A stretch of DNA of 64,000 bases from Streptomyces diastatochromogenes. GTDB lineage: Bacteria > Actinomycetota > Actinomycetes > Streptomycetales > Streptomycetaceae. The stretch spans positions 186,001 through 250,000 of the forward strand of contig NZ_MCGQ01000007.1 in assembly GCF_002242805.1 (NCBI RefSeq). The letters are read 5' to 3'. How positions within the stretch are numbered: the first letter of the stretch is position 1; each line of letters begins with the position of its first letter. The notes below the pieces were generated by a model that was not told where the DNA came from, made no database searches, and worked only from the letters and a program-made list of their open reading frames with translations. The position numbers and the translations under genes are program-made. Shown here piece after piece: positions 13,080-38,176 of this stretch.

Positions 13080-13269
13080 TCGCCGGAGCGCGCGGGCCTG
13101 GCTGATTTCTCTTGAACGCACGCACAGCCACCCTCACCAATTTGGAGCAAGTACGATCCAGTTTCCGCCTGGGATGTGATCGAAAAAGTTTGAGGTCTCG
13201 ATACCCCCACCTCCTCGGCTTAGAGAGAGGGCACACGGAACCCATAACGAACAAAGGACAGGGCGTCTG

Positions 13270-14526
13270 ATGTCATTCGGTCCGTCACCCGCAGGTTTCG
13301 GGCCTGCCATATCGCCTACGTGGACACCGCCAACGGACATCGAGCAGGCGTTGTTCGAGGCCAAGTCGCGCGAGGACTGGCCTGCGTACTTCGGGACGCT
13401 TGCGCAGAGCAGGCTGTTCTTCGAGATACAGAAGGACAAGGCGGATGCCACACCCCCTGCCACGTACGCCGTCTTCGGACACGATCCGCGTGTCGCCGGC
13501 GGGCGGATCTGGGCCGTGTACACCGAGGGCATGCTGCCCGCGCCGGAGCCCCACCGGGTGTTCGACTGGAACCGCCTCGAGTGGTTCACCAAGGTGTGGC
13601 GGCCAACTGATCCGTCGATGATCGTGGTCAATCCGGGGAGTCCTTGCGAGGCCTTCCTTCCCTCGGCGCCGCCGCATTCGGCGACTTGGGCGCAGTACGG
13701 GGAGCGGGCTCCCGCTCGGAAGCGGTCCCTGCGGCTGCGTACCCTCCGCGTCGGCGGCCCGCTGCACGGCTCCGTCGCCCACGGCCTCGCCTGCGGCGCG
13801 CTCCTGTGTGTCAGCAACGGCTCCTTCTGGAACTCCATGGCCTGGCACGGCACGGGATATCCAGGTGAGCGGACACGGCTTCGCGAATGGTGGGGCATCA
13901 CCACCCGCGAGGAGTGGCAGTACTACCTGCGCGACCTCCTCGCCTGCGAGCAGCACAGCTCGGTCTGGGATTTCGCCCTCGGGCTGCGCCGGACCATCGC
14001 TCGGGATTTCGGCGGGCACGTCGATACGGGGTACTGGCGGCAGGCCGCCGGCAACCTCATCCGGGCCAGGTCCGAGGGTTCGATCGTGGTGTCCGAGGAC
14101 GGCGTCACCAGGACCGACCCCCGACCCGAGTCCGAGGTCGAGGCCCGCGTCGAGGGTGTGCAGCGGCTCATCGGGCGTATCACCCGCTACGAGGCCCGGA
14201 TGCGGGCCGACGGTGTGCTCGACGAGAACCGGTACGTGTCGTCCGTCGACGCCTGGGATCTCGGGCGCGCCTCGAAGATGGCCCGGTGGGGGCTGGGGGC
14301 GCGGTTCGGCACCCTCGCGGAGGCCGAGTCCGCCGTCATCCAGGCGGGGCGGACCGCCTCTCATTCCTACAAGTCGTGGCAGGACTTCTCCGCCGGCTAC
14401 ATCCTCGGGCGCTGCCTTCACTTCGATGAGGAGGAGTTCGGGGACTGGTATCAGGACATGGTCGAGGCCCATCGGATCCTGATGTCCGATCCCGGGAGTC
14501 CTTGGCTCAACATCCCGTTCCGGTGA
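13270..14526 (+). CDS. DUF1266-domain protein, paralogue A
   Basis: A 418-residue cytoplasmic protein closely similar along its whole length to the product of 21845-23101. The N-terminal part (MSFGPSPAGFGPA..., then SREDWPAYFGTLAQSRLFFE...) looks SseB-like. The C-terminal part fits DUF1266: WWGITTREEW, then DAWDLGRASKMARWGL, then SYKSWQDFSAGYILGR. The molecular function of DUF1266 is unknown. Codon use returns to typical high GC from this gene on. AAAGGAC about 11 bases before the ATG is the ribosome-binding site. It follows the low-GC toxin/immunity cassette after 190 bases without a recognisable gene and may be a further accessory of the same locus. Confidence 0.7.
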   Translation: MSFGPSPAGFGPAISPTWTPPTDIEQALFEAKSREDWPAYFGTLAQSRLFFEIQKDKADATPPATYAVFGHDPRVAGGRIWAVYTEGMLPAPEPHRVFDWNRLEWFTKVWRPTDPSMIVVNPGSPCEAFLPSAPPHSATWAQYGERAPARKRSLRLRTLRVGGPLHGSVAHGLACGALLCVSNGSFWNSMAWHGTGYPGERTRLREWWGITTREEWQYYLRDLLACEQHSSVWDFALGLRRTIARDFGGHVDTGYWRQAAGNLIRARSEGSIVVSEDGVTRTDPRPESEVEARVEGVQRLIGRITRYEARMRADGVLDENRYVSSVDAWDLGRASKMARWGLGARFGTLAEAESAVIQAGRTASHSYKSWQDFSAGYILGRCLHFDEEEFGDWYQDMVEAHRILMSDPGSPWLNIPFR

Positions 14527-21844: not shown

Positions 21845-23101
21845 ATGTCGTTCGGTCCGCCACCCGCAGGGTTCGGGCCTGCGACGCCGCCGACCTGGAC
21901 GCCGCCGACAGAGATAGAGCAGGCGCTCTTCGAGGCCAAGTCGCGTGAGGACTGGACGGGCTACTTCGACACCCTCGCACGGCATCACCTCTACTACGAG
22001 ATACGGCGCGACAAGTCGGATGCCGACCCGAGCAAGGTCCATCCCCTCTTCGGGCACGATCCTCGGGTCGCCGGCGGTCGCGTCTGGGCGGTGTACACCG
22101 AGGGAATGCTGCCCGCGCCGGAGCCGCACCGGGTGTTCGACCGGAAGTCGCTCAGGTGGTTCGCCCAGGGGTGGGAGCCCACGGACCCGCTGTGGCTCGT
22201 GGTCAATCCCGGCAGCCCCTGCGAGGCTTTCCTCCCGTCCGCGCCGCCACACTCCGGGGCCTGGGGGCAGCACGCCGAACGGATCGGCGTGCCCTCGTGC
22301 AGTCCGGCGCTGCGCTCCCTCCGGGTCGGTGGGCCCCTGCAAGGCGCCGTGGCCCATGGACTGGCCTGTGGTGCTCTGCTCTTCGTGAAGTGCGGGCACT
22401 CCTGGAACGCCATGGCGCATCACGGCCACGGGTACCCCAAGGAGCGCAAGCTGCTCGAGGAGTGGTGGGGCGTCACCAGTCGCGAGGGATGGCAGGAGCA
22501 GCAGCGCGCCCTGCTCGACCCCGACGGCGCCAACCCCGTCTGGGAGTTCGCCCTCGGGCTGCGTCGCACCATCGCTCGTGACTTCGGCGGTCATGTCGAC
22601 ACCGGCTACTGGCGTGACGCGGTTGCGCGGGTGCTGCGTGGTCGGTCGGGCGGAGAGATCGTCATCACCCCGGACGGGGTCACCTCCACCCCCACCGTCC
22701 CCGAGGCGGAGACCGAGGCCCGCATCAAGGGCGTCCAGGCTCTCGTCGGGCGCATCACCCGCTACGAGGCGCGCTTCCGGGCCGACGGCATCCTCGACGA
22801 GAACCGGTTCGTCAGCTCCGTCGACGCATGGAACTTCGGGCGGGCCTCGGGTATGGCTCGCTGGGGTCTGGGAGCCCGGTACTGCTCACTGCCGGAGGCC
22901 GAGTCCGCCGTCATCGAGGCCGGGCGGGCCGCCGCGCGGTCGTACAAGTCCTGGCAGGACTTCGCCGCCGGGTACATCCTCGGGCGCTGTCTGCACTTCG
23001 ACGACGAGGAGTTCGGCAGCTGGTACACGGACATGGTCGACGTCCATCGGATTCTGATGTCCGACCCGGGCAGTCCCTGGCTCACCGTGCCCTTCAAGTG
23101 A
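21845..23101 (+). CDS. DUF1266-domain protein, paralogue B
   Basis: About 418 residues from the ATG at 21845, chosen because the paralogue at 13270 starts with the same MSFGP; an upstream TTG at 21830 is less likely. Shared blocks include IEQALFEAKSREDW, FGHDPRVAGGR, NPGSPCEAFLPSAPPHS, LRRTIARDFGGHVDTGYW, WGLGAR and SWQDFAAGYILGRCLHFD. The last part is a DUF1266 domain of unknown function. It begins 49 bases after the DUF397 gene on the same strand and could be read with it, which is an unusual neighbour for a WhiJ-like pair. The nearly identical intact copies suggest recent duplication. Confidence 0.7.
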   Translation: MSFGPPPAGFGPATPPTWTPPTEIEQALFEAKSREDWTGYFDTLARHHLYYEIRRDKSDADPSKVHPLFGHDPRVAGGRVWAVYTEGMLPAPEPHRVFDRKSLRWFAQGWEPTDPLWLVVNPGSPCEAFLPSAPPHSGAWGQHAERIGVPSCSPALRSLRVGGPLQGAVAHGLACGALLFVKCGHSWNAMAHHGHGYPKERKLLEEWWGVTSREGWQEQQRALLDPDGANPVWEFALGLRRTIARDFGGHVDTGYWRDAVARVLRGRSGGEIVITPDGVTSTPTVPEAETEARIKGVQALVGRITRYEARFRADGILDENRFVSSVDAWNFGRASGMARWGLGARYCSLPEAESAVIEAGRAAARSYKSWQDFAAGYILGRCLHFDDEEFGSWYTDMVDVHRILMSDPGSPWLTVPFK

Positions 23102-24682: not shown

Positions 24683-25219
24683 CTAGGCCTCCTCGAAGTA
24701 CGCGTCGAGGACCGCGTCCAGCTCGTCCTCCCACTCCTTGAAGCGCGCCCTGGCCGTCGCCTCGATCTCGATCGGGTACCAGCGACGGTCAGGGGTGTGC
24801 ACCGTGATGGTGAAACGCTTGCCGAAGCGGGGGGACTCCGTCTCGACCGCGGCGATCTCGTTCCAGCGGAACTCGCACTTCTCCTCGTCCAGGCTGAGAC
24901 GGACCCCGCGGTGGTCGGCGACGAACTTGGCGCGGCGGTCGGAGGCCTCGAAGACGGGGCCGTCTTCGGGCGCCGCCTTCTCTTCCTCCGGCTCTTCCTC
25001 CGGCTCTGCCGGTGCCTCGGCCGTCTCCGCCTTCGCCTTCGGCTCAGGCTCCTCGGCGGGCTCCGGTGCCGTCGGCTCCGACTCGGACTCCGGCTCCGGT
25101 TCCGGCTGCGACTTCGCCGCCGGTCCGGTGATCCCGGGGATGAAGGCCGGGTCGAATCCGGCGCCCGTCACGGGCTCGCCCTCGACGGGCTTGCTGCTCG
25201 ATCCTATGCGCTGCTCCAC
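24683..25219 (-). CDS. Acidic-linker protein of unknown function
   Basis: A 178-residue protein starting at GTG 25219. Residues about 38-90 are a low-complexity Glu/Pro/Ala stretch (PEPEPESESEP type), probably unfolded. The C-terminal 85 residues form a small folded domain with alternating strands (FVADHRGVRLSLDEEKCEFRW... RFTITVHTPDRRWYPIEIEA), possibly PH-like. No signal peptide. It is the last gene on the minus strand after the AAA+ ATPase (67 bases) and converges with the carboxypeptidase gene. Membership in the ATPase operon is likely; function unknown. Confidence 0.6.
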   Translation of the reverse strand: MEQRIGSSSKPVEGEPVTGAGFDPAFIPGITGPAAKSQPEPEPESESEPTAPEPAEEPEPKAKAETAEAPAEPEEEPEEEKAAPEDGPVFEASDRRAKFVADHRGVRLSLDEEKCEFRWNEIAAVETESPRFGKRFTITVHTPDRRWYPIEIEATARARFKEWEDELDAVLDAYFEEA

Positions 25220-25286
25220 GGCGGCAGTATGGACGACATTCCTGTGCCGGAACCAGTCAGCCCACCGATCCCTGGGGTCACATGCG

Positions 25287-26852
25287 TCATTCGTCCATGA
25301 AGACGATGCGTCGGGTCCGGCCGCCGTCCCCCGGCACCGGCGTCACCGCCGCCCGGCCCGCAGGTACCGCGCGTTCGCGGCCCCAGGCCCGGATCTCCTC
25401 GATCTGCTCGGGGTTGCTGACGCTGAGCGGGCGTACCTGGGCGAAGGTGTCCATGACGTACGAGTCCTTCAGCTGGGCGATGCCGCCGCGGCGCACCGCC
25501 TCCTCGGCCACGTCGTGCAGGGCGGCCTCTATGTCGGAGCCGGCGAAGCCCTCGGAGAGGTCGACCAGGCGGTCGAGCTGCTCGGGGGTGGGGTCGGCCT
25601 GGAGGTAGCGATGGTGGTAGATGCGGATGATCTCCTTGCGGTCCTGGGCGTCGGGCAGGTCCACGAAGAAGAGTTCGTCGAAGCGGCCCTTGCGCAGCAG
25701 TTCCGGGGGGAGGCTGCGGATGTCGTTGGCGGTGGCCACGACGAACGCGCGGGACTGGGACTCCTGGAGCCAGTACAGGAACTGGCCGATGATGCGCTGC
25801 GGGACGCCGGACATGTCGTCCCGTCCGGCCAGGCCCTTCTCGATCTCGTCGATCCACAGGACGCAGGGGGCCACACGGTCGGCCATCGCCAGGGCCTCGC
25901 GGAAGCGGCCCTCGGACTCGCCGAGGTACTTGCCGTGGATGCTGGCCATGTCGAGGCGGTAGAGGGGCAGCTGCCAGTCGTGGGCGATGGCCTTGGCGGA
26001 GAGCGACTTGCCGCAACCTGGGACGCCCACCAGGAGGACTCCGCGCGGCGGGCGCAGGGCGGTGTGGCGCAGGTCGCGGGAGATCATGTCGTGCTTGCGT
26101 TCCAGCCAGGTGCGCAGGCCGGTCAGGCCGCCGATGGCGTAGTCGCTCTGCTTGAGGTGGACCCGTTCCAGGCCGGTGAGGTCGCTGAAGATGCGGTCCT
26201 TGGCCTGGGCGAGGCCGAGGACGTCCTCGCGGCGGATGGCGCCCTTGGCGGCGATGGTCGCCATGAGGTTGACGCACTCGGCCTCGGTGACGCCGTTCAG
26301 GAACTCGGCCGCGCGCCGGGCGTCCTCCTCGGTCCACTCGATGGGGATGTGGCCGTGGTGGTCGCCGAGGAAGCCGCTGAGGATGCCGTACATCTCCTCG
26401 GAGTCGGGCAGGTCCAGGCGCAGGCTCATGCCGAGGCGCTGCAGGCCGCTCCAGATGGGGGTGTCCGTGATCAGGACGATGCTGCCCATGTTGCTGTCGG
26501 CCAGGCGGGCCAGTTCCGCGAAGTGGCGGGTGACCGGGGTGTCCGACTCGAGTTCGTCGGGGTCGACGAAGACGACCGTGGCGTTGGCGCGGCTGCCGAA
26601 CTGGGCGGCCGCGAAGTCCATCGCGCCGGCGAGTGAACGGTCGTCCTGCACGGACGCGTTGGTGCGCAGGTCGCGCAGGCCGGTGGCCCGGGTGTAGATC
26701 CAGAACGGCATGCTGCTGCGCCGGGACTGGGTGGCCGCCTCGCGCAACAGGCGCAGGGCGCGCTGCTGTTCGATGGTGCGCATCGCGATGACCGGGACGC
26801 GGGCGGAGATGTAGCTGTCGAGGTGGCTGAGGCTCTCGGCGTAGTTCGACAT
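25287..26852 (-). CDS. AAA+ ATPase (Ycf46-like)
   Basis: A 521-residue cytoplasmic AAA+ protein. The N-terminal half (about 1-240) is a non-catalytic alpha/beta domain with ARVPVIAMRTIEQQRALRLL and VVFVDPDELE. The AAA+ core follows (about 255-480): Walker A GVPGCGKS, Walker B VLWIDEIEKG, sensor 1 VVATAND, and an arginine-finger-like LLRKGRFDELF. The lid helices contain SEGFAGSDIEAAL. The whole matches the Ycf46/FtsH-like AAA group used in bacterial stress and conflict modules. It belongs to the minus-strand operon 30484-24683, opposite a caspase and CHAT protease, and is the only NTPase there, so it is the likely energy-using sensor or unfoldase of that module. Confidence 0.88.
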   Translation of the reverse strand: MSNYAESLSHLDSYISARVPVIAMRTIEQQRALRLLREAATQSRRSSMPFWIYTRATGLRDLRTNASVQDDRSLAGAMDFAAAQFGSRANATVVFVDPDELESDTPVTRHFAELARLADSNMGSIVLITDTPIWSGLQRLGMSLRLDLPDSEEMYGILSGFLGDHHGHIPIEWTEEDARRAAEFLNGVTEAECVNLMATIAAKGAIRREDVLGLAQAKDRIFSDLTGLERVHLKQSDYAIGGLTGLRTWLERKHDMISRDLRHTALRPPRGVLLVGVPGCGKSLSAKAIAHDWQLPLYRLDMASIHGKYLGESEGRFREALAMADRVAPCVLWIDEIEKGLAGRDDMSGVPQRIIGQFLYWLQESQSRAFVVATANDIRSLPPELLRKGRFDELFFVDLPDAQDRKEIIRIYHHRYLQADPTPEQLDRLVDLSEGFAGSDIEAALHDVAEEAVRRGGIAQLKDSYVMDTFAQVRPLSVSNPEQIEEIRAWGRERAVPAGRAAVTPVPGDGGRTRRIVFMDE

Positions 26853-26916
26853 GCGGGCCTTCTCGGACCTTCTTCGAGGCGGGACGGATCGGGACGGGTT
26901 GCGGGCGGACCGCGCC

Positions 26917-27468
26917 TCAGTCGGGCACGATGCGCCGTCGGGGCGGTGCCGCCGGGTCGTACGACCATGCGTCCCCGGCCGGTCGTACGGTCAGCGTGGC
27001 GGTCAGCGCGTTGTCCCGCAGGGTGCGGCGGCGGCGCTCGACCAGGCGGGGGTCGGTGCCGCGCCGGATCTCGGCGTCCAGGTTCCGCTCCAGCTGGGCC
27101 TGCACCTCGGTGATCTGGTTGTCGACCAGCTCGGTCAGCCGGGTGCGCAGGGACTCCGGGAGGCCGGGGTGGGCGGCCAGCCCGCGGATGCTGTGCAGAC
27201 CGGTGCGGGCCTGGGCGAGTTCACGGCCCCAGCTGAAGTCGTCCCGGGACTCGTTCAGGGCGCGGACCAGGTGTTCGGCCCAGGCGACCAGGCGGGTGTT
27301 CAGGGCGCTGGTGAGGTGCTCGGTCAGCCGGGCCCAGGTGTCGCCGTCGTACTGCTCCTCGGCGAGCGCGGGCAGCACGCCCGGGTCGGCGGGCTCCAGG
27401 GCCGCCCAGCGGCGCAGGAAGCCGACCCAGGCCTGGTAGGGGCCGCCGTCGCCCCACAGACCGCTCAT
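26917..27468 (-). CDS. Conserved protein of unknown function in ATPase/caspase locus
   Basis: About 183 residues with ATG at 27468 overlapping the previous stop (ATGA). Helical throughout, with YQAWVGFLRRWAALEPADPG at the start, long amphipathic helices (RLTEHLTSALNTRLVAWAEHLVRAL) and a basic C-terminus containing RRRRTLRDNALTATLTVRP. No transmembrane segment or signal peptide. I do not recognise the family. Tight coupling with both neighbours says it works with the AAA+ ATPase and the membrane protein. A longer in-frame reading upstream to 28233 is a chance extension through neighbouring genes. Confidence 0.6.
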   Translation of the reverse strand: MSGLWGDGGPYQAWVGFLRRWAALEPADPGVLPALAEEQYDGDTWARLTEHLTSALNTRLVAWAEHLVRALNESRDDFSWGRELAQARTGLHSIRGLAAHPGLPESLRTRLTELVDNQITEVQAQLERNLDAEIRRGTDPRLVERRRRTLRDNALTATLTVRPAGDAWSYDPAAPPRRRIVPD

Positions 27469-28046
27469 GCGGTGCTGCCCGGCCGGCGTACGAGGGTCTC
27501 GCCGGGCGGCAACGGCTCCCAGTCGGGCAGCCCCTCCACAACCCGCCGAAGCCTGCTGGTGACCCGCTCCTGCTGCGGCCGACGCTGCGCGGCCCACGGC
27601 GAGGACTGGGCACGACCGGAGTCGGCGGAGGCGGCCCAGGGGGAGGCGGGGCCGGTGCCGCTGGGCTGGGCGGTGTGGGGGGCGATGCCGCCGGCGGCGG
27701 ACTGCGGGGCGGCGGTCCAGGGAGCCGCCGGGGTGGCTCCTTGGGGTGCGGCGCCGCCTGCAGCGGACTGCGGGGCGGCAGCCCAAGGCGCCGCCGGGGT
27801 GGCCCCTTGCGCAGGCACCGCGGCTCCCTGGCCCGGCACCGTGGCCCCGGGCTGCCCGGTCGCGGCCCAGGACCGCTGGGCCGCGGTCGCCGACGGGCCT
27901 GCCGTGCTGCTCCCTGGCGGCGGCACCGTCCCCGCCTCGGGCGACGCGGGGCGCGCGGCGTTCGCCCACGGCGACTCGTCCGGCGCGCTGCCCTGCGCGG
28001 GCGGCGTCGGTCCGGGCTGGTGAGCGGGCGGCGGTGGCGTACTCAT
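27465..28046 (-). CDS. Pro/Ala/Gln-rich protein with 22-residue tandem repeat
   Basis: A 193-residue low-complexity protein rich in Ala, Pro, Gln and Gly. Two tandem 22-residue units beginning GATPAAPW occupy about 81-124 (bases 27675-27806, 2 x 66 bp). Only the last 45 residues look structured (QERVTSRLRRVVEGLPDWEPLPPGETLVRRPG). Start and stop overlap the neighbouring genes by ATGA at both ends, so it is a genuine coupled gene and not a shadow. It could be an intrinsically disordered scaffold linking the membrane coiled-coil protein to the soluble components. Confidence 0.6.
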   Translation of the reverse strand: MSTPPPPAHQPGPTPPAQGSAPDESPWANAARPASPEAGTVPPPGSSTAGPSATAAQRSWAATGQPGATVPGQGAAVPAQGATPAAPWAAAPQSAAGGAAPQGATPAAPWTAAPQSAAGGIAPHTAQPSGTGPASPWAASADSGRAQSSPWAAQRRPQQERVTSRLRRVVEGLPDWEPLPPGETLVRRPGSTA

Positions 28047-29953
28047 CGGGCGCTGTCCTCCTGGGACTCGGACGAGTTCTCCTGACCGGCCTTGGCCTCC
28101 GGCCCGGACTCCTTACGGGACGACGACGCGGACGCGGACTGCCAGGGGGCGGCCGGAGGTACGGCGTCTTCCTGGGCCGAGTCCTCGGGCGCGTTCTCCT
28201 TGCGTACCGTCCGCCCCTCGAACGGCGAAGCACCCCCGCCCGCCGTGGGCAGCGTGGCGATCAGTTCGCGGACCTTTGTCTCCGTCTGGTCGGCGGAGGT
28301 GAACTTCTCGTACCAGTCGGTGAGTTCGGCGGAGGCGCCGCGTAGCTGGTGCAGGGACTCCGTCTTGGCGCGGGTCAGGAGTTCGCGGGCCGCGTCCTGG
28401 GCGCGTTTCGCGGTCTGGGCCTGGTTGCGCAGGATCAGGCCCCAGACCAGGGCGACGATGGCCGCGGAGCCGATCGCGAAGAGGGGGAAGCTGCCGGCGA
28501 GGAAGAGGAGGATGGCCGCGACGACGCCGGCCAGCGGGGCCACCTTCTTCAGCCACGGGAAGGCGAGCGCGTCGACGAACGGGCCCGTGTAGCGGTCCCA
28601 GTGGTCGCTGAGGGACTTCTCCAGGGTGGCCAGGGGCTGGGTGAAGGAGCCGACCCAGGTGGGGAGTTGGAAGAGCTGCGAGCCCACGGAGTGCGAAGTG
28701 GCGAACTGGGCCTGGACGTCCTGCGGTACGGCGGCCCGGTAGTCGCGGGTGTGGGCGGCGTGCGCCTGGCGGAACCACTCGTGGCAGGCCGCGACGGAGA
28801 GCCGCTGGGTGGCCGGTGAGGTGCCGATGGCCTGCGGGTTGAGCGCGGCCGTGGTCTGCACGGTGAGGTAGTCGAGGGTCTCCTCGTACGAGGCCGCGTC
28901 CGCGTCGGCGGTCTTGCGGGCGGAGGTGAGGTCGCCGTCGTGGTCGACCACCGCCTGGTTGAAGGCGAGGTCGCGGCGGAGCGGCAGCTCCTCGTTGTCG
29001 TACTCGGAGACCAGCCGGTCGAGGATGTCGTCGACGGCGTCCTCGATGCGCTCGGACGGCTGGAACTCGCGTTCCATGATGGCCTTGTACTTGTCCAGCA
29101 CGGGCTGCTGGCCGCGCGCGGAGGAGAGCACGCCGTCGAGGGTGAGCCACTGCGGGGACAGGGCGGCCAGGCGCGGGAACTCGGCCGCCTGGGACGGACC
29201 GCGTAGGGACTCCAGCTCGTCGCGCCAGCGCCGGACCTGCTTGGCCTGTGCGTCGGCGCTGTCCATCAGCTGGTTGCGCCACTCGGCGAGGGTACGGTCC
29301 AGCAGCTCGCGGCCGACCAGTCCGAACGCGCCCTGGGCGATGGCCTCCAGGATGACCGCGAACTCGCGGCCGAGCGCGGCCGGGTCCTGGGCGAGGAGGT
29401 AGTGGCGCAGCCAGCGTACGGCGCCCTCCGCACGGCCCTGGCGGCGCAGGACGAGCGCGAAGAACAGGGAGGTGCGGTCGGGCGAGCGGCGGAACGCCTC
29501 GTCGACCGCGCGCTCGCACAGGGTGCGGTCGTCGGCGGACCAGGAGGCTAGGGCGACCAGGGCGGGGGCGAGCCAGTAGCGGGGGGTCTGGAGCATCAGC
29601 TGGTCGCCGACCATCCGGACGTTGTCCTCCGACACCAGGCCGATGTCGAAGGCCTGGAGCATGCCGACCGCGGTACGGCGGACCGTCTTGTGGTGGCCGA
29701 ACTCGTGGTCGATCTTGTCCTCGATGGCCCCGATGCGGGTCTCGGCGCGCTGCACGTTCGCGGTGGCCTGCGCCTGCTGGACGAAGGCGAGGAACTCGTC
29801 GCGCAGTTGCTGGAGTTCGGTGCGGGTCTGGTGCTGGTTGGCCTCGACGGTGGAGACCTGGCCGGAGACGGAGCCGACCTGTTCGCTGAGTCTGATGACG
29901 AGGTTGCTGACCTCCTGCACCTGGCGGCGCAGTGTGTAGTCGACCTCGGACAT
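28043..29953 (-). CDS. Coiled-coil membrane protein of ATPase/caspase locus
   Basis: A 636-residue protein. Residues about 1-75 form a coiled coil (YTLRRQVQEVSNLVIRLSEQ, then RTELQQLRDEFL). About 90-450 is a helical soluble region with MLQAFDIGLVSEDN and WLRHYLLAQDPAAL. Two closely spaced transmembrane helices lie at about 475-515 (GVVAAILLFLAGSFPLF and SAAIVALVWGLIL), followed by a helix and a Ser/Glu-rich disordered tail. No enzymatic motif is seen. ATG at 29953 with GGAG. In the operon it is the only membrane protein, so it is the natural candidate for a membrane-acting effector or anchor. Confidence 0.7.
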   Translation of the reverse strand: MSEVDYTLRRQVQEVSNLVIRLSEQVGSVSGQVSTVEANQHQTRTELQQLRDEFLAFVQQAQATANVQRAETRIGAIEDKIDHEFGHHKTVRRTAVGMLQAFDIGLVSEDNVRMVGDQLMLQTPRYWLAPALVALASWSADDRTLCERAVDEAFRRSPDRTSLFFALVLRRQGRAEGAVRWLRHYLLAQDPAALGREFAVILEAIAQGAFGLVGRELLDRTLAEWRNQLMDSADAQAKQVRRWRDELESLRGPSQAAEFPRLAALSPQWLTLDGVLSSARGQQPVLDKYKAIMEREFQPSERIEDAVDDILDRLVSEYDNEELPLRRDLAFNQAVVDHDGDLTSARKTADADAASYEETLDYLTVQTTAALNPQAIGTSPATQRLSVAACHEWFRQAHAAHTRDYRAAVPQDVQAQFATSHSVGSQLFQLPTWVGSFTQPLATLEKSLSDHWDRYTGPFVDALAFPWLKKVAPLAGVVAAILLFLAGSFPLFAIGSAAIVALVWGLILRNQAQTAKRAQDAARELLTRAKTESLHQLRGASAELTDWYEKFTSADQTETKVRELIATLPTAGGGASPFEGRTVRKENAPEDSAQEDAVPPAAPWQSASASSSRKESGPEAKAGQENSSESQEDSAR

Positions 29954-30001
29954 GCGGAACTCCGTTCGAGTGCTGCGGGGTGAGCGGGCAGGGGTCGGGG
30001 G

Positions 30002-30484
30002 TCAGGGGCGGACGACGGTGCCGTCGTCCAGGACGGGCAGGATCAGGCCGTCGTCGTAGACCTCGACGTAGGCGTAGCCGCCGGAGCGGGCGAGCATGCG
30101 GGCGGCCGAGAACGGCTCGGGCATCGGCTCGGCCGGGGCGAAGTGCCGCACGATGACGTGGAAGAGGTTGAGCTGGTGGTCGACGTACGGCGGGCCCAGA
30201 TAGCAGCGGGCGACGAAGCCGAGCGGCACCGAGCCGTACGCCGTCGTGTACTGCTCGCGGACCCACTCGGCCAGCGACCGGCAGGCCTGCTCGTCCAGTC
30301 CCGCGTCGAGCCGGCCCACGGCGTCGAGCAGCTTCCGGGAGCGCGCTGTGTACAGCTCACGGCGCAGGGCGGCGGGCGCCGGGTTCGCGGGCGCGGCGCC
30401 CCGCTGGGCGCCCAGGCCCGGCTGGATCCCCGGACCCTGCTGTGCCGACTGCACGATACGGCGCGGCCGTTCGGTGTTCCCCAT
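30002..30484 (-). CDS. Conserved protein of unknown function, head of ATPase operon
   Basis: About 160 residues from the ATG at 30484; GGGGGA lies just before it, while other in-frame starts at 30502 and 30646 lack a ribosome-binding site. After a Gln/Gly/Pro-rich stretch (about 15-40) comes a folded domain with SLAEWVREQYTTAYGSVPLGF, LGPPYVDHQLNLFHVIVRHF and GGYAYVEVYDDGLILPVL. No known domain recognised. Divergent from the caspase gene with 130 bases between the two, a spacing that suggests shared control. Confidence 0.6.
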   Translation of the reverse strand: MGNTERPRRIVQSAQQGPGIQPGLGAQRGAAPANPAPAALRRELYTARSRKLLDAVGRLDAGLDEQACRSLAEWVREQYTTAYGSVPLGFVARCYLGPPYVDHQLNLFHVIVRHFAPAEPMPEPFSAARMLARSGGYAYVEVYDDGLILPVLDDGTVVRP

Positions 30485-30614
30485 GTGTCCCCCGAGAGTC
30501 ATGGGTGGTGAGCGGTTGTGCGATGCACGGAAGGTGAAGGTTAGTGACGTCACGTCAAGAGTGCATCTCGGTACGGCTGATTGACACCGACAGGACACTG
30601 GCAGACTCTCCCCT
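30485..30614. promoter_or_regulatory. Divergent promoter region with GTGACGTCAC palindrome
   Basis: Between the divergent starts at 30484 and 30615 lies a perfect 10-bp palindrome, GTGACGTCAC (30544-30553). TTGACA at 30581-30586 looks like a -35 element; a -10 would fall near 30602-30608, which puts the transcript start close to the ATG at 30615. The caspase gene may therefore be leaderless; no ribosome-binding site is visible before it. The palindrome is a candidate operator for both arms. Confidence 0.45.
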
Positions 30615-32429
30615 ATGGGGACGATCAAGGCACTGCTGGTGGGCATCGACGACTATCCGGCGTCCGTGGCGAGTGCGCTCGGCGGCTGCGCGAACGACAT
30701 CGCGGAGGCGGGCCGGCTGCTGGCCGACCTGGCCGGTGAACAGGCGGACATCACCGTCCTGTTGAACGCCGACGCGACTGTCGCCGCCGTGACGGACGCG
30801 GTGCTGCGGCACCTGGGCTCGGCCGGTCCGGACGACACCGCGCTGCTGTGGTTCTCCGGGCACGGCACGCAGGAAGCCGCCACCGGTGACGATCTGCTGA
30901 TCGAGGCGACGGGCCTGAACCAGGCGCTGGTGTGCGTGGACGGTCCGCTGCTCGACAAGCGGCTCGGCGCGCTGCTGGACCGGGTCGCGGCGGGCGGTGC
31001 CCAGGTCACGGCGGTGCTGGACTGCTGTCACTCGGGGGGCGCGACGCGGGAGGCGGAGCTGACCCAGCGGTACGCGCCGCCCCGGCCGGAGTGGGACTTC
31101 GGCGCCCGGGCCCACGGCGGGCCGCCCCGGCACGTGCTGCTGGCGGCGAGCCGGCTGAACGAGCCGTCGTACGAGGGCTGGTTCGAGGGGCGCCGGCACG
31201 GGGCGTTCACGCATGCGCTGGTCGGCGCGGTGCGGGCGGCCGGTCCCGGCGCCACCTGCCGCGAGCTGCTGGCGGCGGCCGCGGCGCGGGTGCAGCGGGC
31301 GGGCAGCACCCAGCATCCGGTGCTCTTCCCGGACCTGCCGGGCGGTGCGGCGGACCGCCCGCTGCTCGGCGGCGCGCCCCGGCTACGCGGCCTCACCGCG
31401 AGCCCGCACCTGCTGCGGTACGGCGCCGACGGCTGGGAGGTGGACTGCGGTGCCGTGCACGGGCTCCGGGAGGGCGGCGCCGAGGCCCAGGGCACCACCT
31501 TCGCGGCGCTGGAGGAGGGGCCGGGCCGGGGGGTCGTACGCGCGGTGGAGGTGTCGGCCGCGCGGACGCTGGTCACGCCGGTGGACTGGGAGCCGGAGCC
31601 GGAGCGGGTGTATCCGGTCGCGCTGTCGGAGGTCGCCCTGCCGCCGGCCAGTGTGGCGGTGGACGGATCACCGGAGGACGTACGGCGGCTCGCGGCGGCA
31701 CTCGGGCCGCTGGTGCGGCTGGTGGACGGGGCCGAGGAGGCGCTGGGGCTGCACTTCCGGGTACGGGTGCGGGACGGGCGGGCGTCGGTGCTGCGGCGTG
31801 ACGGTACGGAGTTCACGGCGCCGCTTCCCTTCGCCGCACCGGCGGACGCGGAGCGGGTCGCGGACTGCCTGGCCCACCTCACCCGCTGGCACCAGCTGCG
31901 CGATCTCACCCCGCGGCCCTCCCTGCTGGACGGTCTGGTGGAGCTGGAGATCACCCCGTGGGGCTCGGCGGAGCCGCTGCGGCCGGACGCGTCCGGGGAG
32001 ATCGTCTGCGAGTACGGCGGCGGCCTGCGCCCGCCCTGGGTGTCGATCCGGCTGCACAACCGCTCCCCCGACCGCACCCTGTGGTGCGTCCTGCTCGACC
32101 TGACCGACGGCTACGCCTCCTCCTCGGAGCTGTATCGGGGGCACTTCATCGGTCCCGGCCGTACGGGCCACGCGCTGGACGGCGATCCCGTGCGGCTGTC
32201 GCTGCCCGCCTCCCAGGCCGTCGTGCCGGGGGCGGAGGCCCGTGACTGGCTCAAGCTGATCGTGGCGGACCGGGAGTTGAGCACGGTGCCGTTCCAGCTG
32301 CCCGCCTGGCACGCGGCGACCGGGCGTCGGATCCTCGGTCCCGTGCTGGGGGCGGCGGGCCGCTGGACGGCGGTGACCGTGCCGCTGCGCACGCTGGTGC
32401 CGGAGCCGGTCAGCGGCCCAGATGCGTGA
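30615..32429 (+). CDS. Caspase-fold (peptidase C14) protease
   Basis: A 604-residue metacaspase-like protein. Residues 1-240 are the caspase domain: IKALLVGIDDYP at the start, catalytic H83 in WFSGHGTQ and catalytic C138 in DCCHSG, both intact. A prodomain is missing, so activity may be controlled by partners. About 250-600 is a C-terminal region of unknown fold with beta-rich repeats (YPVALSEVALPPASVAVDG, LHNRSPDRTLWCVLLDL), which resembles the sensor or effector parts of bacterial caspase conflict proteins. It converges with the CHAT gene, the 3' ends overlapping by 20 bases. Arg/Lys or Asp specificity cannot be read from the sequence. Confidence 0.9.
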   Translation: MGTIKALLVGIDDYPASVASALGGCANDIAEAGRLLADLAGEQADITVLLNADATVAAVTDAVLRHLGSAGPDDTALLWFSGHGTQEAATGDDLLIEATGLNQALVCVDGPLLDKRLGALLDRVAAGGAQVTAVLDCCHSGGATREAELTQRYAPPRPEWDFGARAHGGPPRHVLLAASRLNEPSYEGWFEGRRHGAFTHALVGAVRAAGPGATCRELLAAAAARVQRAGSTQHPVLFPDLPGGAADRPLLGGAPRLRGLTASPHLLRYGADGWEVDCGAVHGLREGGAEAQGTTFAALEEGPGRGVVRAVEVSAARTLVTPVDWEPEPERVYPVALSEVALPPASVAVDGSPEDVRRLAAALGPLVRLVDGAEEALGLHFRVRVRDGRASVLRRDGTEFTAPLPFAAPADAERVADCLAHLTRWHQLRDLTPRPSLLDGLVELEITPWGSAEPLRPDASGEIVCEYGGGLRPPWVSIRLHNRSPDRTLWCVLLDLTDGYASSSELYRGHFIGPGRTGHALDGDPVRLSLPASQAVVPGAEARDWLKLIVADRELSTVPFQLPAWHAATGRRILGPVLGAAGRWTAVTVPLRTLVPEPVSGPDA

Positions 32430-35400
32430 AGCCGGCCCAGGCGCTCAGATCGTGCGGGTCGATCCGGCGGGCCCGCTCGGCGAGGAACTCCGGCAGCTCG
32501 GGCGGTAGTTCGCGGTCGGGGTTGAGCATCCACAGCTGGGCACGGCGCAGGGCCCGGGCCGGGGGTTCTCCGTGGGTGCGCAGGAAATGGTGGGTGAGGA
32601 ACATCAGCACCGAGGTCGCCTCGTCCGGGACCGGCCACAGCGAGCCGACGACCGAGCGGGCGCCGGCGGCGAGGAAGGCGGTGGCGAGGCTGTAGGCCTC
32701 GTTGTGGCCGCGGCCCGAGACATGGCTGCGGCAGGCGGCCAGCAGCACGAGACCCAGCCGGTCACCGCCCGCGCCGGCGATCTCCTCCGCAGCCAACTGC
32801 CCGTCGTGCAGGGCGAGATAGGCGCTGCGGCGGGCGTTCTCGGCGACGGACGCGTGGCAGGCGAGATGCAGCACCGCACCGTCGTACGGCGTCTCGCGCA
32901 GCCATCGCAGCACCTCGCCCGGGGTGCCGGGGCCGTCGGTGGGACCGGCCGTGCGGCGGCCCAGGAACCGGGCGTCGGGGTAGAAGGCCCGCTGCACGGC
33001 GTCGGCCTCCTCGCCCGCGTGGCGCAGGTCGCCGGTCGGGTTGCCGACGATCAGGGCGGCGCCGGTGTGCTCGGCGGCGGGGCGGGCGGCCACCTGGCAC
33101 AGCAGGCGGGCCGAGGCGGCGTAGGAGATCTCGGCGGCCTGGAGCGCGTACTGCCGGCCCCGCGGCCCGCCCGCCTCCCAGGCCGCGTGCCAGGGCACGA
33201 GCCCCAGCTTCCCCATCGGCACCAGCACCAGCCGGGGCAACCGCCCGGCCGGCATCTCGAAGGCCTCCAGCAGCGGCCGCATCGCCGCGTACCAGGCCCA
33301 GCCGCACAGCCGGTCCAGCTGGGCGCGGAGGGAGGACGGGGCGGTGGGGCGCCAGCCGGGGACGGGGCCGAGGTCGCGGGGGTGGGGGTGGGCGGGGGCG
33401 CCGGTGGCGTCGTGGGCGAGGCCGCCGCCCGGGCCGTACTCCGTCGGCGGGTCACCCGGGCCCCCGGACAGACCGGCGCCCGAGGCGTACTGCGCCTGCG
33501 CGGCGCCCGAATCCGGGCCCCCCGCACGCGACAGCCCCTCCCCCGGGCCGTACTCCTTCAGCGGCGCCGCGTCCTCCGTGAGCGTCGGCAGGGGTACGGC
33601 GTGCACCGTGGCCTTCGAGGTGACGACCAGGGCGGTACCCGGGGTGTCGTCCGTGGCCGGCACCAGGTAGACCAGGGCGTCCTTGGTGAGGGTGCGCAGG
33701 GCCTCGGCGATCTCGTCGGGGGTGGGCGGGTCGAGGAGTTGGGCCTGGTGGGTGCCGGTGAGGGCGGCCAGGACGCGGCGGCGCAGGGTGCTGGGCACGG
33801 TGAGGGGGGTCTGGGCGGCGGTGAGGGGGTCGCTGGGCCGCTCGGTCGCGCCGGCTCCGGCGGCCTGCCAGTCGGCCGCGAGGCCGGTGTGGCCGGTGGC
33901 GGTGAGGAGGTCGGGGACGGTCGCCGAGGTGAGGGTCGCGTGCAGGACCAGGCCCCGGCAGGCGTCCAGGGCCTGGAGGGCCTCCTCGGGGCGGTCGTCC
34001 TTCAGGCACCAGCCGGCCACCTCCAGCGCGGCCCCGGTGGCCTGCGCGGCGGCGACCGTCGCGTGGTCGGTGCCGGACTGCAGCAGGGCGGCCCAGGCGT
34101 GGCCGCGCAGGGACTTCAGGCCGAGGGAGCGGGCGCTCGCCCGGTCGCGGCGGTGCAGGTCGTCGCGGGTGCGGTGGGCGCGGGCGAGGGCGAGGCCGAT
34201 GTCGGCGTAGAGCCGGTGCTCTGGTCCGCCCGCCTCCGCGAAGGCGCCCTCCAGCAGGGCGATGCCCTTGGCCAGGCGCTCGCGGCGGCGCACCCGGTCG
34301 AACTCCATCTCGGACAGGACGCAGTGGGCGATGCCGAGGCCGTTGGCGTAGCGCAGGCGGCTGTCGCTGCCCGGCTCGCACAGCTCGTGGGCCTCCCGGA
34401 GCAGGCCGATGGCCGCCACGAGTCCCGGTCCGTCCTGCTGGGCGGCGGCCTGCGCGAAACGGGCCATGCCGGTGTCGCCGAGCACCCAGGCGCGATGGTC
34501 GCGTGGCAACCGGCTTGCCTGGCGCCGCAGTTCGGCCGGGCCGGGGCGGGCGGCGAGCGGCGGCAGCGGGGGTACGCCGAGGTGCTGAGCGAGGTTGTCG
34601 CGGCCGAGGCGGGCGTTCTCCAGGAGGATGAGGATCTCGATACGGGAGGGGTCCTCGTCGCTGAGCGCGGCGTGGCCCTCGGTGAGCGCGGCGATGTGCC
34701 GGTCGGCGGTGGCCAGGTCGCCGCTCCGCACGGCGGCGTGCGCGTCGAAGCCCGCCTGCTGGAGCTCCATCAGGCGGCGCACGTGCGCGGGCAGGGCGGG
34801 GTCGGAGCGCAGTCGGCGCCAGGTCGCGGCACCGGCCTCCATGTCGTCGCCGGCGCCGCCGGTCTGGCCGCGCTGGGTCTGGGCCACGAACCGGGCGAGG
34901 GCGAGGCCGTAGTCGGCCTCGTCGCCGAGGCCGCCGTCGGCCTCCGCCCGGTCGAAGTGGGCGAGCACCTCGTCGAACCCGGCGCCGGAACCGCTGATCA
35001 TCTCCTCTTGCAGCCGGGCGACGCCGGCGATGGCGTGCGCCGGCCCCCGCCAGGCCGGATCCCGTTCGGCCCGTTCCAGGACCGCCTGGGTCAGCTCCCG
35101 CCGGTGCTCGGCGGTGACGTGGGTGCCCTCGGGGTCGACGAGGGTGAGGTTGTTCAGTATCAGCGAGGCGAGCTGGGCCCGGCCGGGGCTGCCCGGTTCG
35201 AGGGCGCGCAGCCGGGCGAGGGCCTGTTCGAAGCCCTGGATACGACGGCGGGATCCGACGACGTCCCGTTCCATGCCCCGCAGGAACTCCTCCTCCCCGA
35301 AGTCGACGAAGGCCCGGCCCTCGCGGATGTCGTCGAGCATGCCGTCCCAGGTCTGCTTCAGCCGTTCGGCGTCGAGTCCCTCCGGGTATCCGTCGATCTC

Positions 35401-36681
35401 GGGCAGTTCTCCGTGGTCGGCGAGGGTGAAGCGGGCCCAGCCGTCGAGCATGCGGGCGGACTGGAGCAGGTCGTGGTTGTCGGTCCCCGAGTCCAGCACG
35501 ATGCCGGCGGCCCGCAGCACGTCCCGGGCACGGTCCGGCCGGGGGTCGTCGTGGTGCCGGGACTGCTGGAAGAGGGCGAGGAAGAGCGCGGTGGCGCCGA
35601 TGTCGCCGTCCCGTTCCGGCCGCCAGGTGTCGAGGGCCCGGCGGACCAGGGAGATACCGCGGTCCCTGCCCTCGGCGTCGTCACGGGCGGCGGCCCGCTC
35701 GTACAGCAGCCGCCCGAACATGTCCAGGTACTGCGGCAGCAGCTGCTCCTCGGCGCCGGGCCGCTCCAGCAGGCGCCGCAGCTCGACCTCGGCGGCCAGG
35801 CTGTGGCCGACGTCCTTCCAGGTGCCCCAGATCATGGCCCGTACGAGGAGGGCGTTGACCTCGGCCTCGAACGCCCAGTGGGGTTCGGGTCCGCCCGCCC
35901 GGCGGGCCTCGGTGAGCGCGGTGTCGAAGGCGTCCCGGGCGGCCTCCAGTTCCTCCCGGTCGACCCGCACCCGTCCGCGCACCATCGCGGCCAGGCCCAG
36001 GCTGTAGCGCAGGTGCGGGACTTCGGCGGGCGCGGCCGTGTCGAGGAGGGCGCGGTAGTGGCGGGCCGAGGTGTCGGCGGCGTCGAGGTCGCCGTGGAGC
36101 AGGGCCCGCTGCATGGACAGATACCCGGCCCCGGCCCTCAGGTCGGCCTCTTCCTCACTGCCCGGCTCCACGTCCGCAAGGGCGTCGTCGTGCCTGCGCA
36201 GGGCCTCCGCCAGCAGCTCGGCGGAGTCGGGTTCGGCGAGACAGCGCAGCTTGGCGCACACGGCGAGCACCTGCCGCCCCCACACTCGCTCCCAGGCGAA
36301 GTCGGGGTCCTGGTCGGGCAGCCCCTCCACCCCGGCCACCAGCAACGCGAAGGCCTCTTCCAGCACGTGCCGCTCGCCGCCGTCCTCGTACTGCACACCC
36401 CGCAGCTGCCCGAACCGGACCCGCCAGGCCGACCAGAGCGGCTCGGCGCCGGGATTGCGGAACGCGTGCTCGAACGCCTCGACGGCCAGGGCGAGTTCCT
36501 CGTCCCGGCCGTCGTCGTCCCGCAGCAGATACAACCGGTGGCTCAGCTCTCCGGCGTACCCGCACAGCTCGGCGGACTCCGGATCGCCGGCGGAGCGCCG
36601 GGCCAACTCGTCTAGTACGGCGTCACGTTCGGCGGTGATGTCACCGATCGGGTCGGTCGGCCGGGAGGAGGAGAAGGTCAC
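32410..36681 (-). CDS. CHAT-domain protease with long helical repeat region
   Basis: A 1,423-residue protein. Residues about 1-1020 are TPR/helical-repeat-like (many short Ala/Arg/Glu helices), with CHAT at the C-terminus (about 1070-1423). Catalytic histidine is H1276 in HLACHA and catalytic cysteine C1317 in LLAACRSH, both intact; QLWMLNP and FTHLGR close the domain. A Gly/Pro-rich insertion with imperfect repeats (YGPGEGLS, YASGAGLS, YGPGGGLA) lies at about 1050-1090. CHAT is a caspase-related clan CD cysteine protease fold. Start GTG at 36681, 13 bases after the gntP stop. With the caspase facing it, this makes a two-protease locus, and the repeats may sense a protein or peptide ligand. 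Confidence 0.9.
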   Translation of the reverse strand: MTFSSSRPTDPIGDITAERDAVLDELARRSAGDPESAELCGYAGELSHRLYLLRDDDGRDEELALAVEAFEHAFRNPGAEPLWSAWRVRFGQLRGVQYEDGGERHVLEEAFALLVAGVEGLPDQDPDFAWERVWGRQVLAVCAKLRCLAEPDSAELLAEALRRHDDALADVEPGSEEEADLRAGAGYLSMQRALLHGDLDAADTSARHYRALLDTAAPAEVPHLRYSLGLAAMVRGRVRVDREELEAARDAFDTALTEARRAGGPEPHWAFEAEVNALLVRAMIWGTWKDVGHSLAAEVELRRLLERPGAEEQLLPQYLDMFGRLLYERAAARDDAEGRDRGISLVRRALDTWRPERDGDIGATALFLALFQQSRHHDDPRPDRARDVLRAAGIVLDSGTDNHDLLQSARMLDGWARFTLADHGELPEIDGYPEGLDAERLKQTWDGMLDDIREGRAFVDFGEEEFLRGMERDVVGSRRRIQGFEQALARLRALEPGSPGRAQLASLILNNLTLVDPEGTHVTAEHRRELTQAVLERAERDPAWRGPAHAIAGVARLQEEMISGSGAGFDEVLAHFDRAEADGGLGDEADYGLALARFVAQTQRGQTGGAGDDMEAGAATWRRLRSDPALPAHVRRLMELQQAGFDAHAAVRSGDLATADRHIAALTEGHAALSDEDPSRIEILILLENARLGRDNLAQHLGVPPLPPLAARPGPAELRRQASRLPRDHRAWVLGDTGMARFAQAAAQQDGPGLVAAIGLLREAHELCEPGSDSRLRYANGLGIAHCVLSEMEFDRVRRRERLAKGIALLEGAFAEAGGPEHRLYADIGLALARAHRTRDDLHRRDRASARSLGLKSLRGHAWAALLQSGTDHATVAAAQATGAALEVAGWCLKDDRPEEALQALDACRGLVLHATLTSATVPDLLTATGHTGLAADWQAAGAGATERPSDPLTAAQTPLTVPSTLRRRVLAALTGTHQAQLLDPPTPDEIAEALRTLTKDALVYLVPATDDTPGTALVVTSKATVHAVPLPTLTEDAAPLKEYGPGEGLSRAGGPDSGAAQAQYASGAGLSGGPGDPPTEYGPGGGLAHDATGAPAHPHPRDLGPVPGWRPTAPSSLRAQLDRLCGWAWYAAMRPLLEAFEMPAGRLPRLVLVPMGKLGLVPWHAAWEAGGPRGRQYALQAAEISYAASARLLCQVAARPAAEHTGAALIVGNPTGDLRHAGEEADAVQRAFYPDARFLGRRTAGPTDGPGTPGEVLRWLRETPYDGAVLHLACHASVAENARRSAYLALHDGQLAAEEIAGAGGDRLGLVLLAACRSHVSGRGHNEAYSLATAFLAAGARSVVGSLWPVPDEATSVLMFLTHHFLRTHGEPPARALRRAQLWMLNPDRELPPELPEFLAERARRIDPHDLSAWAGFTHLGR

Positions 36682-36694
36682 GTACCCATACTGC

Positions 36695-38176
36695 CTACAG
36701 GAACACGCTCACCACCCCCGCCACCGCGAACCCCGCCACCGACAGCACCGACTCCAGCACCGTCCACGTGCGCAGCGTGTCCCGCTCGGTGATGCCGAAG
36801 TACTTGGCGACCATCCAGAAGCCGCCGTCGTTGACGTGCGACGCGAAGATGGAGCCGGCGGAGATGGCCATGATGACGAGGGCGACGAAGGCCTGGGAGT
36901 GGTGGCCCTCGGCGAGGAGCGGGGCGACGATGCCGGCCGTGGTCACGATCGCGACCGTGGCCGAGCCCTGGGCGACGCGCAGCACCAGCGAGATCAGGTA
37001 CGCCAGCGCGATCACCGGGAGACCCACGTCGTGGAAGGTGTCGGAGAGTGCCTGGGCCACCCCGCTCGCCTTCAGGACGGCGCCGAAGATCCCGCCCGCG
37101 CCGACGACCAGCAGGATGTTGCCGACCGGCTTGAGGGACGACGTCGACACGGTCTCCAGGGACTTGCGGGACCAGCCGCGCCGGATGCCGAGCAGGTAGT
37201 AGGCGAGCAGCAGGGCGATCGTCAGCGCCACGAAGGGGCTGCCGAAGAACTCGATCACCGAGCGGCCGGTGGACGGGTCGAGGGCGATCGACGAGAAGGT
37301 GGCGGCGAGGATGAGGATCAGGGGCGTACCGATGATGCCGAGGACGGTACCGAGCGGCACCGGTTGCTCGCGCGGCTCCACGCCCTGCTCGCGCTGCTCG
37401 TTCAGCACCGCCAGCTTCGCCTCGGCCGCCGCCTCGACCATGTCCTGCGGTACGGCGACGAAGACGCGCCGGCCGATCCACGCCGAGTACGCCCACGCGG
37501 CCAGCACCGCCGGGATGCCGCAGACGATGCCCATGAGGATGACCCAGCCGAGGTCGACGTGGAGGAGGCCCGCGGCGGCGACCGGGCCCGGGTGCGGCGG
37601 CAGGAAGGCGTGGGTCATGGAGAGGCCCGCGAGGAGGGGCAGGCAGTACAGCAGGATCGACTTGCCGGAGCGTTTGGCGGCCGCGTAGACGATCGGCGCG
37701 AGGACGAAGATGCCGACGTCGAAGAAGACCGGAATACCGAAGATCAGGCCGGTCAGACCCATGGCGAGGGGCGCGCGCCGCTCCCCGAACAGGTTGAGCA
37801 GCCGGGACGCCAACACCTCGGCCCCGCCGCTGACTTCGAGGATCGCGCCGAGCATCGTGCCCAGCCCGATGATGATCGCGACATGGCCGAGGATGCCGCC
37901 CATGCCGGTCTCGATGGTGGAGACGGCGTCGGAGCGCTGGACGGTGCCGAAGAGTTCGGTGACGGAGAGGCCGGCGAGGAGACCGACCGCTATGGAGACG
38001 GCGAGGAGGGCGACGAAGGGCTGCAGCCGGACCTTGATGATCAGGAAGAGCAGGAGGGCTATGCCGATGGCGGCGACGGTGAGCAGTCCGGCGGTGCCGT
38101 CGACGAGGAGGAGCAGGCCTCCGGTGTGGGGTGGGGCTGCGGGGGCGGGGGCGGTTGCGGCGAGTGGAAAGGACAT
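36695..38176 (-). CDS. GntP-family gluconate-type permease
   Basis: A 493-residue membrane protein with about 12-14 hydrophobic helices. Characteristic GntP blocks include LQPFVALLAVSIAVGLLAG, GIPVFFDVGIFVLAPIVYA, THAFLPPHPGPVAAA and FASHVNDGGFWMVAKYF. It imports gluconate or related sugar acids with protons. ATG at 38176 with GAGGACC. It follows ridA after 117 bases and a strong hairpin (38227-38254), so it may be partly separated from the upstream operon. Its neighbours (sugar kinase, PLP enzyme, D-acylase) suggest a substrate like (N-acetyl-)glucosaminate, not plain gluconate. Confidence 0.9.
   Translation of the reverse strand: MSFPLAATAPAPAAPPHTGGLLLLVDGTAGLLTVAAIGIALLLFLIIKVRLQPFVALLAVSIAVGLLAGLSVTELFGTVQRSDAVSTIETGMGGILGHVAIIIGLGTMLGAILEVSGGAEVLASRLLNLFGERRAPLAMGLTGLIFGIPVFFDVGIFVLAPIVYAAAKRSGKSILLYCLPLLAGLSMTHAFLPPHPGPVAAAGLLHVDLGWVILMGIVCGIPAVLAAWAYSAWIGRRVFVAVPQDMVEAAAEAKLAVLNEQREQGVEPREQPVPLGTVLGIIGTPLILILAATFSSIALDPSTGRSVIEFFGSPFVALTIALLLAYYLLGIRRGWSRKSLETVSTSSLKPVGNILLVVGAGGIFGAVLKASGVAQALSDTFHDVGLPVIALAYLISLVLRVAQGSATVAIVTTAGIVAPLLAEGHHSQAFVALVIMAISAGSIFASHVNDGGFWMVAKYFGITERDTLRTWTVLESVLSVAGFAVAGVVSVFL

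Follow-up and report, generated by a model that had tools for sequence, protein, structure and literature searches.

The window analysed here is a stretch of 64 kb from Streptomyces diastatochromogenes (genome of 10.5 Mb), in which positions 24683 to 36681 carry genes for two proteases, an AAA+ ATPase, a membrane protein and several small partners. An original prediction had singled out this block as a candidate conflict or cell-death locus, and comparison with relatives confirms that the block is real and forms one conserved cassette. The larger protease, of 1423 amino acids (aa; 32410-36681, minus strand), carries a CHAT domain at residues 1124-1422 (Pfam CHAT, 2.3e-55), the only domain that a Pfam scan of the protein returned; a profile search of solved structures gave no match for it at 0.001. 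The other, of 604 aa (30615-32429, plus strand), is a peptidase of the caspase superfamily (Pfam Peptidase_C14, 4.7e-20). Its best relatives of solved structure are metacaspases (1e-12), enzymes that cleave after Arg or Lys, and it has the caspase fold domain with a His/Cys dyad that defines metacaspase-like members of C14. Both catalytic dyads are intact, as had been claimed: H83 and C138 of the caspase are kept in 21/21 aligned proteins (the alignment excludes locus L118; L-numbers label the loci of relatives and G-numbers genomes, G000 being the window's own), and H1276 and C1317 of the CHAT protein in all 28 readable proteins, a 29th (L040) being N-masked at the dyad. The two genes converge with an overlap of 20 bases, again as predicted.

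The caspase gene is divergent from a minus-strand operon that runs from 30484 to 24683. The first gene (30002-30484) encodes a protein of 160 aa of no known family, with no Pfam match; it is shorter than its longest open reading frame, the start MG..ERPRR at 30484 being common to several relatives. It is followed by the genes for the membrane protein of 636 aa (28043-29953), for a Pro/Ala/Gln-rich disordered protein of 193 aa (27465-28046) whose conserved C-terminal tail is present in 22/22 other loci, and for a helical protein of 183 aa (26917-27468) with an invariant basic RRRTxRDN motif near its C terminus (12 members aligned). The last two genes encode the AAA+ ATPase of 521 aa (25287-26852; Pfam AAA, 5.2e-30), which has its own N-terminal domain (about residues 1-240), and an acidic protein of 178 aa (24683-25219) with a conserved C-terminal domain (9 sequences aligned). 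The operon had been described as coupled by ATGA overlaps; this holds for two of the five junctions, on either side of the disordered-protein gene (28043-28046 and 27465-27468), the coordinates of the other three giving gaps of 48, 64 and 67 bases.

Between the operon and the caspase gene lies a conserved, inverted-repeat-like box, TTGAC-N6-TCAYTA (30542-30558, minus strand), with one match in 64 kb vs 0.00 expected. A looser form, TTGAY-N6-TCAY, occupies this position in 16 of the 20 caspase-bearing cassette loci and also before the operon in L122. It was not found at that place in L114, L116, L118 and L119, nor in L120 and L121; a diverged form is visible in the alignment of L116, and single matches occur elsewhere in L116, L125 and L087. 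Such a motif might be a dedicated promoter element or an operator.

Conservation of the cassette was assessed in 23 complete loci with the operon, which are pairwise distinct sequences, readable whole and pooled from all surveys; L112 (G263) was excluded because its contig ends beside the AAA+ gene. Presence was scored by tblastn; simple gene calling overlooked some genes and put others in the wrong place, L118, L040 and L082 being examples. The CHAT gene was found in 23/23 loci, as was each of the genes for the 160-aa, membrane, 183-aa and AAA+ proteins, and the caspase gene in 20/23. The acidic 178-aa gene, present in only 9/23, is therefore a loose member. With the N-terminal domain of the AAA+ protein as query, orthologues (67-100%) were detected in 16 of 392 genomes of the same genus; the cassette is thus accessory and not core. 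Moreover, among 121 Streptomycetaceae-type genomes, the membrane protein (at least 70%) and the full-length AAA+ protein (at least 81%) occur in exactly the same four genomes, which also have a caspase of at least 62% nearby; a caspase orthologue of 51-55% was seen in two more. Seven loci came from a search of named genomes in which the membrane protein was the query, and a class-wide survey with its profile returned 4 of 374 genomes, all of the window's genus and all already known. Database matches of this protein name Kitasatospora, Embleya, Plantactinospora and one Pseudonocardiaceae genome, and also S. albidoflavus.

These data support the claim that the block is a single system, which stands up to the refutation proposed with it. 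The operon goes with CHAT in every complete locus and with the caspase in most, and the cassette is accessory; proteases lying mostly apart from the operon, or a core housekeeping block, are not what the linkage and the distribution reveal. Several loci nevertheless weigh against a strict unity. Three operon loci, L120-L122 (continued in L124-L126), have no caspase; their CHAT is less closely related (36-41%) and is encoded on the opposite side of the operon. L030 has the caspase, CHAT and the three-gene module described below but no operon, and L029 has a caspase without CHAT, without that module and without the operon.

This third module, found as part of the cassette in 17/23 loci, is a trio in which a RES gene is accompanied by antitoxin-like and macro-domain-like genes. 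It holds the likely effector, which lay beyond the reach of the original prediction. The Pfam RES family is matched above its cut-off (3.5e-19 in L042, from S. flaveolus, and 1.7e-16 in L030). In its C-terminal half, where RES antitoxins have an Xre/MbcA/ParS toxin-binding domain, the antitoxin-like product shows a likeness to them on weak but consistent evidence; the fold of this half appears NatR-like, and a long helical N-terminal part precedes it. From these likenesses, the module is predicted to comprise an NAD-destroying RES toxin and its predicted antitoxin. PADLOC matched none of the trio proteins from L042 and L030, NCBIfam none of those scanned, and the RES profile no solved structure at 0.01; structure-profile searches with the antitoxin-like protein, the membrane protein and three small proteins gave 0.098 at best. 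In L027, L028 and L113 the trio lies between CHAT and the orthologue of a transporter-like gene, and L116 has one extra gene between. In the window, that transporter-like gene (36695-38176, minus strand; gntP-like by eye) is next after CHAT and only 13 bases away, this gap (36682-36694) being the site of the trio in relatives. The genome of the excluded L112 has a RES relative of 93% on another contig.

The linkage of RES to CHAT extends beyond the operon. Six loci (L080, L081, L082, L085, L086, L087) carry antitoxin-like, RES and CHAT genes without it, with a macro-like gene within the same stretch in five of them and about 16 kb away for L080 (L128). Twelve strong RES matches were obtained in the 121 genomes, 11 with an antitoxin-like gene and 10 also with CHAT, the partner sets being of three kinds; the exceptions are L083, a RES pair without CHAT, and L084, with RES alone. 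A comparison of locus tags by eye, among the matches listed (120 for the antitoxin-like protein, 120 for the membrane protein), found 15 common prefixes, with the two tags exactly 25 apart in 14 (five genes if the step is five) and 10 apart in one. It could be argued that the RES genes form an addiction or stress module of the ordinary kind, which simply adjoins the protease genes and is not under the control of CHAT. Indeed, RES toxin-antitoxin pairs are common without proteases according to the available text of PMC11535050, L083 is a pair of this kind, and the four distant profile matches showed no CHAT within the short stretches read. The strong matches, however, have CHAT so often, and within three differing partner sets, that we hold a chance neighbourhood to be quite improbable.

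Two of the operon-less loci deserve a separate description. L087 contains vWA, kinase, radical SAM and ClpB-like AAA genes (Pfam), and a similar set is found in L080; PP2C-like, coiled-coil and HSP70-like genes were labelled by eye in both. The CHAT, antitoxin-like and RES genes are joined to this long operon, which we regard as a second AAA+ partner module for them. The window's genome itself has two more distant-type loci with CHAT, antitoxin-like, RES and macro-like genes and without the AAA+ operon, L085 (G000:C6:135000-154500) and L086 (G000:C10:329000-348500).

The window lacks the trio: the RES, antitoxin-like and macro proteins have no tblastn match in its 64 kb at 1e-4. The cassettes of L040, L041, L045, L110 and L111 likewise lack it. 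In a tree for which we chose L120-L122 as outgroup, the six trio-less loci group together in a single clade with an ultrafast bootstrap of 100; its sister is the trio-bearing L042, and it is nested in trio-bearing loci. The window's lineage has therefore lost the trio, and the tree shows a single loss of the three-gene module in this clade. A mere relocation of the trio elsewhere was considered and rejected, since four of the six window-type genomes have no RES relative at 0.001. The window's genome and that of L045 have two RES relatives each (40-42%), those of the window's genome standing beside other CHAT genes. Within the trio-less clade, the median ratio of non-synonymous to synonymous substitution rates (dN/dS) ranges from 0.05 (AAA+) to 0.51 (183-aa protein) and all pairs are below 1; the remaining window-type genes are under purifying selection. 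In trio-bearing loci the medians look higher (0.32 to 0.66), and because these pairs are at larger dS we draw no contrast. The loss of the trio might suggest that the window copy is a decaying remnant, functionless without its toxin, but the intact dyads and the constraint on the genes left behind give this very little chance. The best reading of the window copy is that of an effector-reduced derivative of the cassette.

The 636-aa protein had been predicted to be a two-helix membrane protein with a coiled coil, and an AlphaFold2 model (mean predicted local distance difference test score of 75.9) bears this out with a coiled coil and a two-helix hairpin. The coiled coil spans residues 3-104, a TPR-like region 88-210 and the predicted membrane hairpin 467-510, and a disordered tail starts at 575. 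Weak relatives in L031-L037 (25-29% identity, or a short match of 37%) occur without caspase, CHAT or AAA+ orthologues and were left out of the cassette count; those of L034 and L036 (25-26%) have Ser/Thr kinase-like genes as neighbours and no other part of the cassette. In the original prediction this protein was the possible killing effector, which caspase or CHAT would release or activate. Its presence in 23/23 loci, including those without RES, together with its hairpin and tail, is compatible with such a role. The model is dominated, however, by the long coiled coil and the TPR-like repeats, which makes the protein look more scaffold-like than pore-like. The fold comparison brought up no pore-forming relative, although it was dominated by the TPR repeats at residues 85-210, says nothing on the remainder and so barely probed most of the protein. 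On balance, a killing role of the membrane protein appears improbable to us.

The AAA+ protein leads to another alternative. Its closest paralogue outside the cassette lies in L123 (G264:C54:14000-33500) at 8169-9728, is 33% identical over the whole length and adjoins a DUF1257 gene; we take the two to be a Ycf46/Ycf35-like pair. To our knowledge, the family of this paralogue, presumably Ycf46-like, is not known for defence. The cassette might then serve regulated proteolysis in normal physiology, such as envelope stress, development or secretion, with the AAA+ protein remodelling the scaffold and the proteases processing regulators. Such a function would agree with this resemblance, with the lack of a defence model that fits at system level (see below) and with the window's clade, which keeps the proteases and the operon constrained without the toxin. 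It agrees poorly with the patchy distribution in the genus and with the linkage to a RES toxin and an antitoxin-like gene in most loci. We consider a physiological function possible, if on the unlikely side.

We favour instead, with a rough probability of 0.5, the view that the conserved accessory Streptomyces cassette of CHAT, metacaspase-like caspase and AAA+/membrane operon is a protease-switched cell-death or growth-arrest system. The interpretation given in the original prediction is partly supported: the genes are linked, and from linkage, family and fold we infer activation, cleavage and a phage or death phenotype. Sensor and brake would be provided by the AAA+ ATPase together with the small partners and the membrane protein, with its coiled coil and TPR-like repeats; these would keep the proteases inactive and respond to some signal. 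Upon this signal CHAT and the caspase would be activated, perhaps one by the other; the order from CHAT to caspase is a guess modelled on the type III-B CRISPR cascade. The position of a protease gene beside the RES pair suggests that the toxin may be released by cutting or removing the antitoxin. Where the cassette has its common form, the protease target is predicted to be the NatR/MbcA-like protein encoded beside RES. Once this protein is removed, the RES toxin would be set free; its predicted action is the phosphorolysis of NAD+, and the macro-domain-like protein might bind or clear the ADP-ribose product. Macro domains handle ADP-ribose-1''-phosphate. Because the toxin, antitoxin and macro genes are gone from the window's lineage, the targets of CHAT and the caspase would be different ones there, either cassette components or cellular ones.

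More tentatively, and at somewhat less than even odds, the loci may represent an undescribed class of actinobacterial immune or suicide systems. In this class CHAT, triggered via an AAA+/membrane scaffold and often accompanied by a metacaspase, would cut a RES antitoxin and so cause NAD+ phosphorolysis, a macro-domain protein handling the ADP-ribose-1''-phosphate; the AAA+ module would be exchangeable, and the window's lineage would have dropped the toxin and kept the switch. If this is true, RES toxins gain an activator and a role in immunity, and bacterial CHAT and caspase proteases become tied to NAD+ depletion. The genetic linkage of a RES pair to both a protease and an AAA+ module makes the idea directly testable, and the toxin-less lineage of the window offers a natural comparison for the action of the proteases alone.

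Some other features of the window were noted in passing. A two-gene unit at 7225-10259 (226 and 784 aa) looks by eye like a secreted or polymorphic toxin pair, and an orthologue of it lies near the cassette in L042 (20795-21761). The proteins encoded at 13351-14526 and 21845-23101 share similar EAKSREDW motifs and are possible paralogues. Positions 12001-14000 have the lowest GC content of the window (0.602).

Several known systems resemble the cassette in part. In the SAVED-CHAT system of type III-B CRISPR, experiments reportedly place a CHAT protease in a series of successive protein cleavages, in which CHAT is said to precede the caspase. The CHAT protease is the common element; unlike that system, the window's protein has no SAVED domain by Pfam and its neighbours are unrelated. 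The cascade, of Steens et al. 2024, is cited in the part of PMC11229360 available to us. The IetAS anti-phage pair likewise joins a protease gene to an AAA+ protein, and the two AAA+ cores belong to one broad family (PADLOC IetA, 6.6e-27), but the match is limited to residues 260-471, the NCBIfam score is 71.6 bits vs a curated cut-off of 510, and the proteases differ in type. Among the window's proteins, the AAA+, caspase and CHAT sequences were matched only in part by PADLOC and NCBIfam models, and no system-level defence model fits.

The EACC1-caspase pairs are actinobacterial conflict systems made up of two genes (Kaur et al. 2020, PMC7159879, in its accessible part). As far as that text goes, they likewise have an N-terminal caspase domain followed by another domain and occur in multicellular actinobacteria. 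The window's caspase, however, scores 63.6 bits vs a family cut-off of 140, its partners are a CHAT protease and an AAA+ operon, and Pfam matched no EACC1 protein among the cassette proteins scanned. Three more caspase-domain genes occur in the window's genome (L088, L089 and L090 of G000); as in EACC1-caspase pairs, a small gene, encoding 129 or 148 aa, comes before two of these. The MoxR-vWA ternary conflict systems, which carry an extra AAA+ (FtsH) component, resemble the cassette in that an AAA+ ATPase and peptidases serve as switch and effectors (same portion of PMC7159879). A Pfam scan of eight cassette proteins revealed no vWA, and the AAA+ protein matched Pfam AAA and no MoxR family above cut-off; the CHAT-RES loci L080 and L087 of relatives are partly alike in carrying a vWA gene.

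The RES-Xre toxin-antitoxin systems (NatRT of Pseudomonas, MbcTA of Mycobacterium) are comparable to the trio of relatives, in which the RES gene adjoins a gene for a protein whose C-terminal fold appears NatR-like; MbcT kills via NAD+ phosphorolysis, as stated in the available section of PMC7291234. In contrast to them, the pair of relatives stands beside CHAT and macro-domain-like genes, often with a caspase and the AAA+ module, its antitoxin-like protein has the long helical N-terminal extension, and the window copy lacks the pair. No paper naming a RES domain together with a CHAT domain was found in the literature searched, a scope that left out most subscription papers. By the tests made, the cassette does not belong to the EACC1-caspase, MoxR-vWA, SAVED-CHAT or IetAS systems. 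To conclude, it would represent a new variant of protease-centred conflict systems; a protease-gated RES toxin would be the bolder reading of it.
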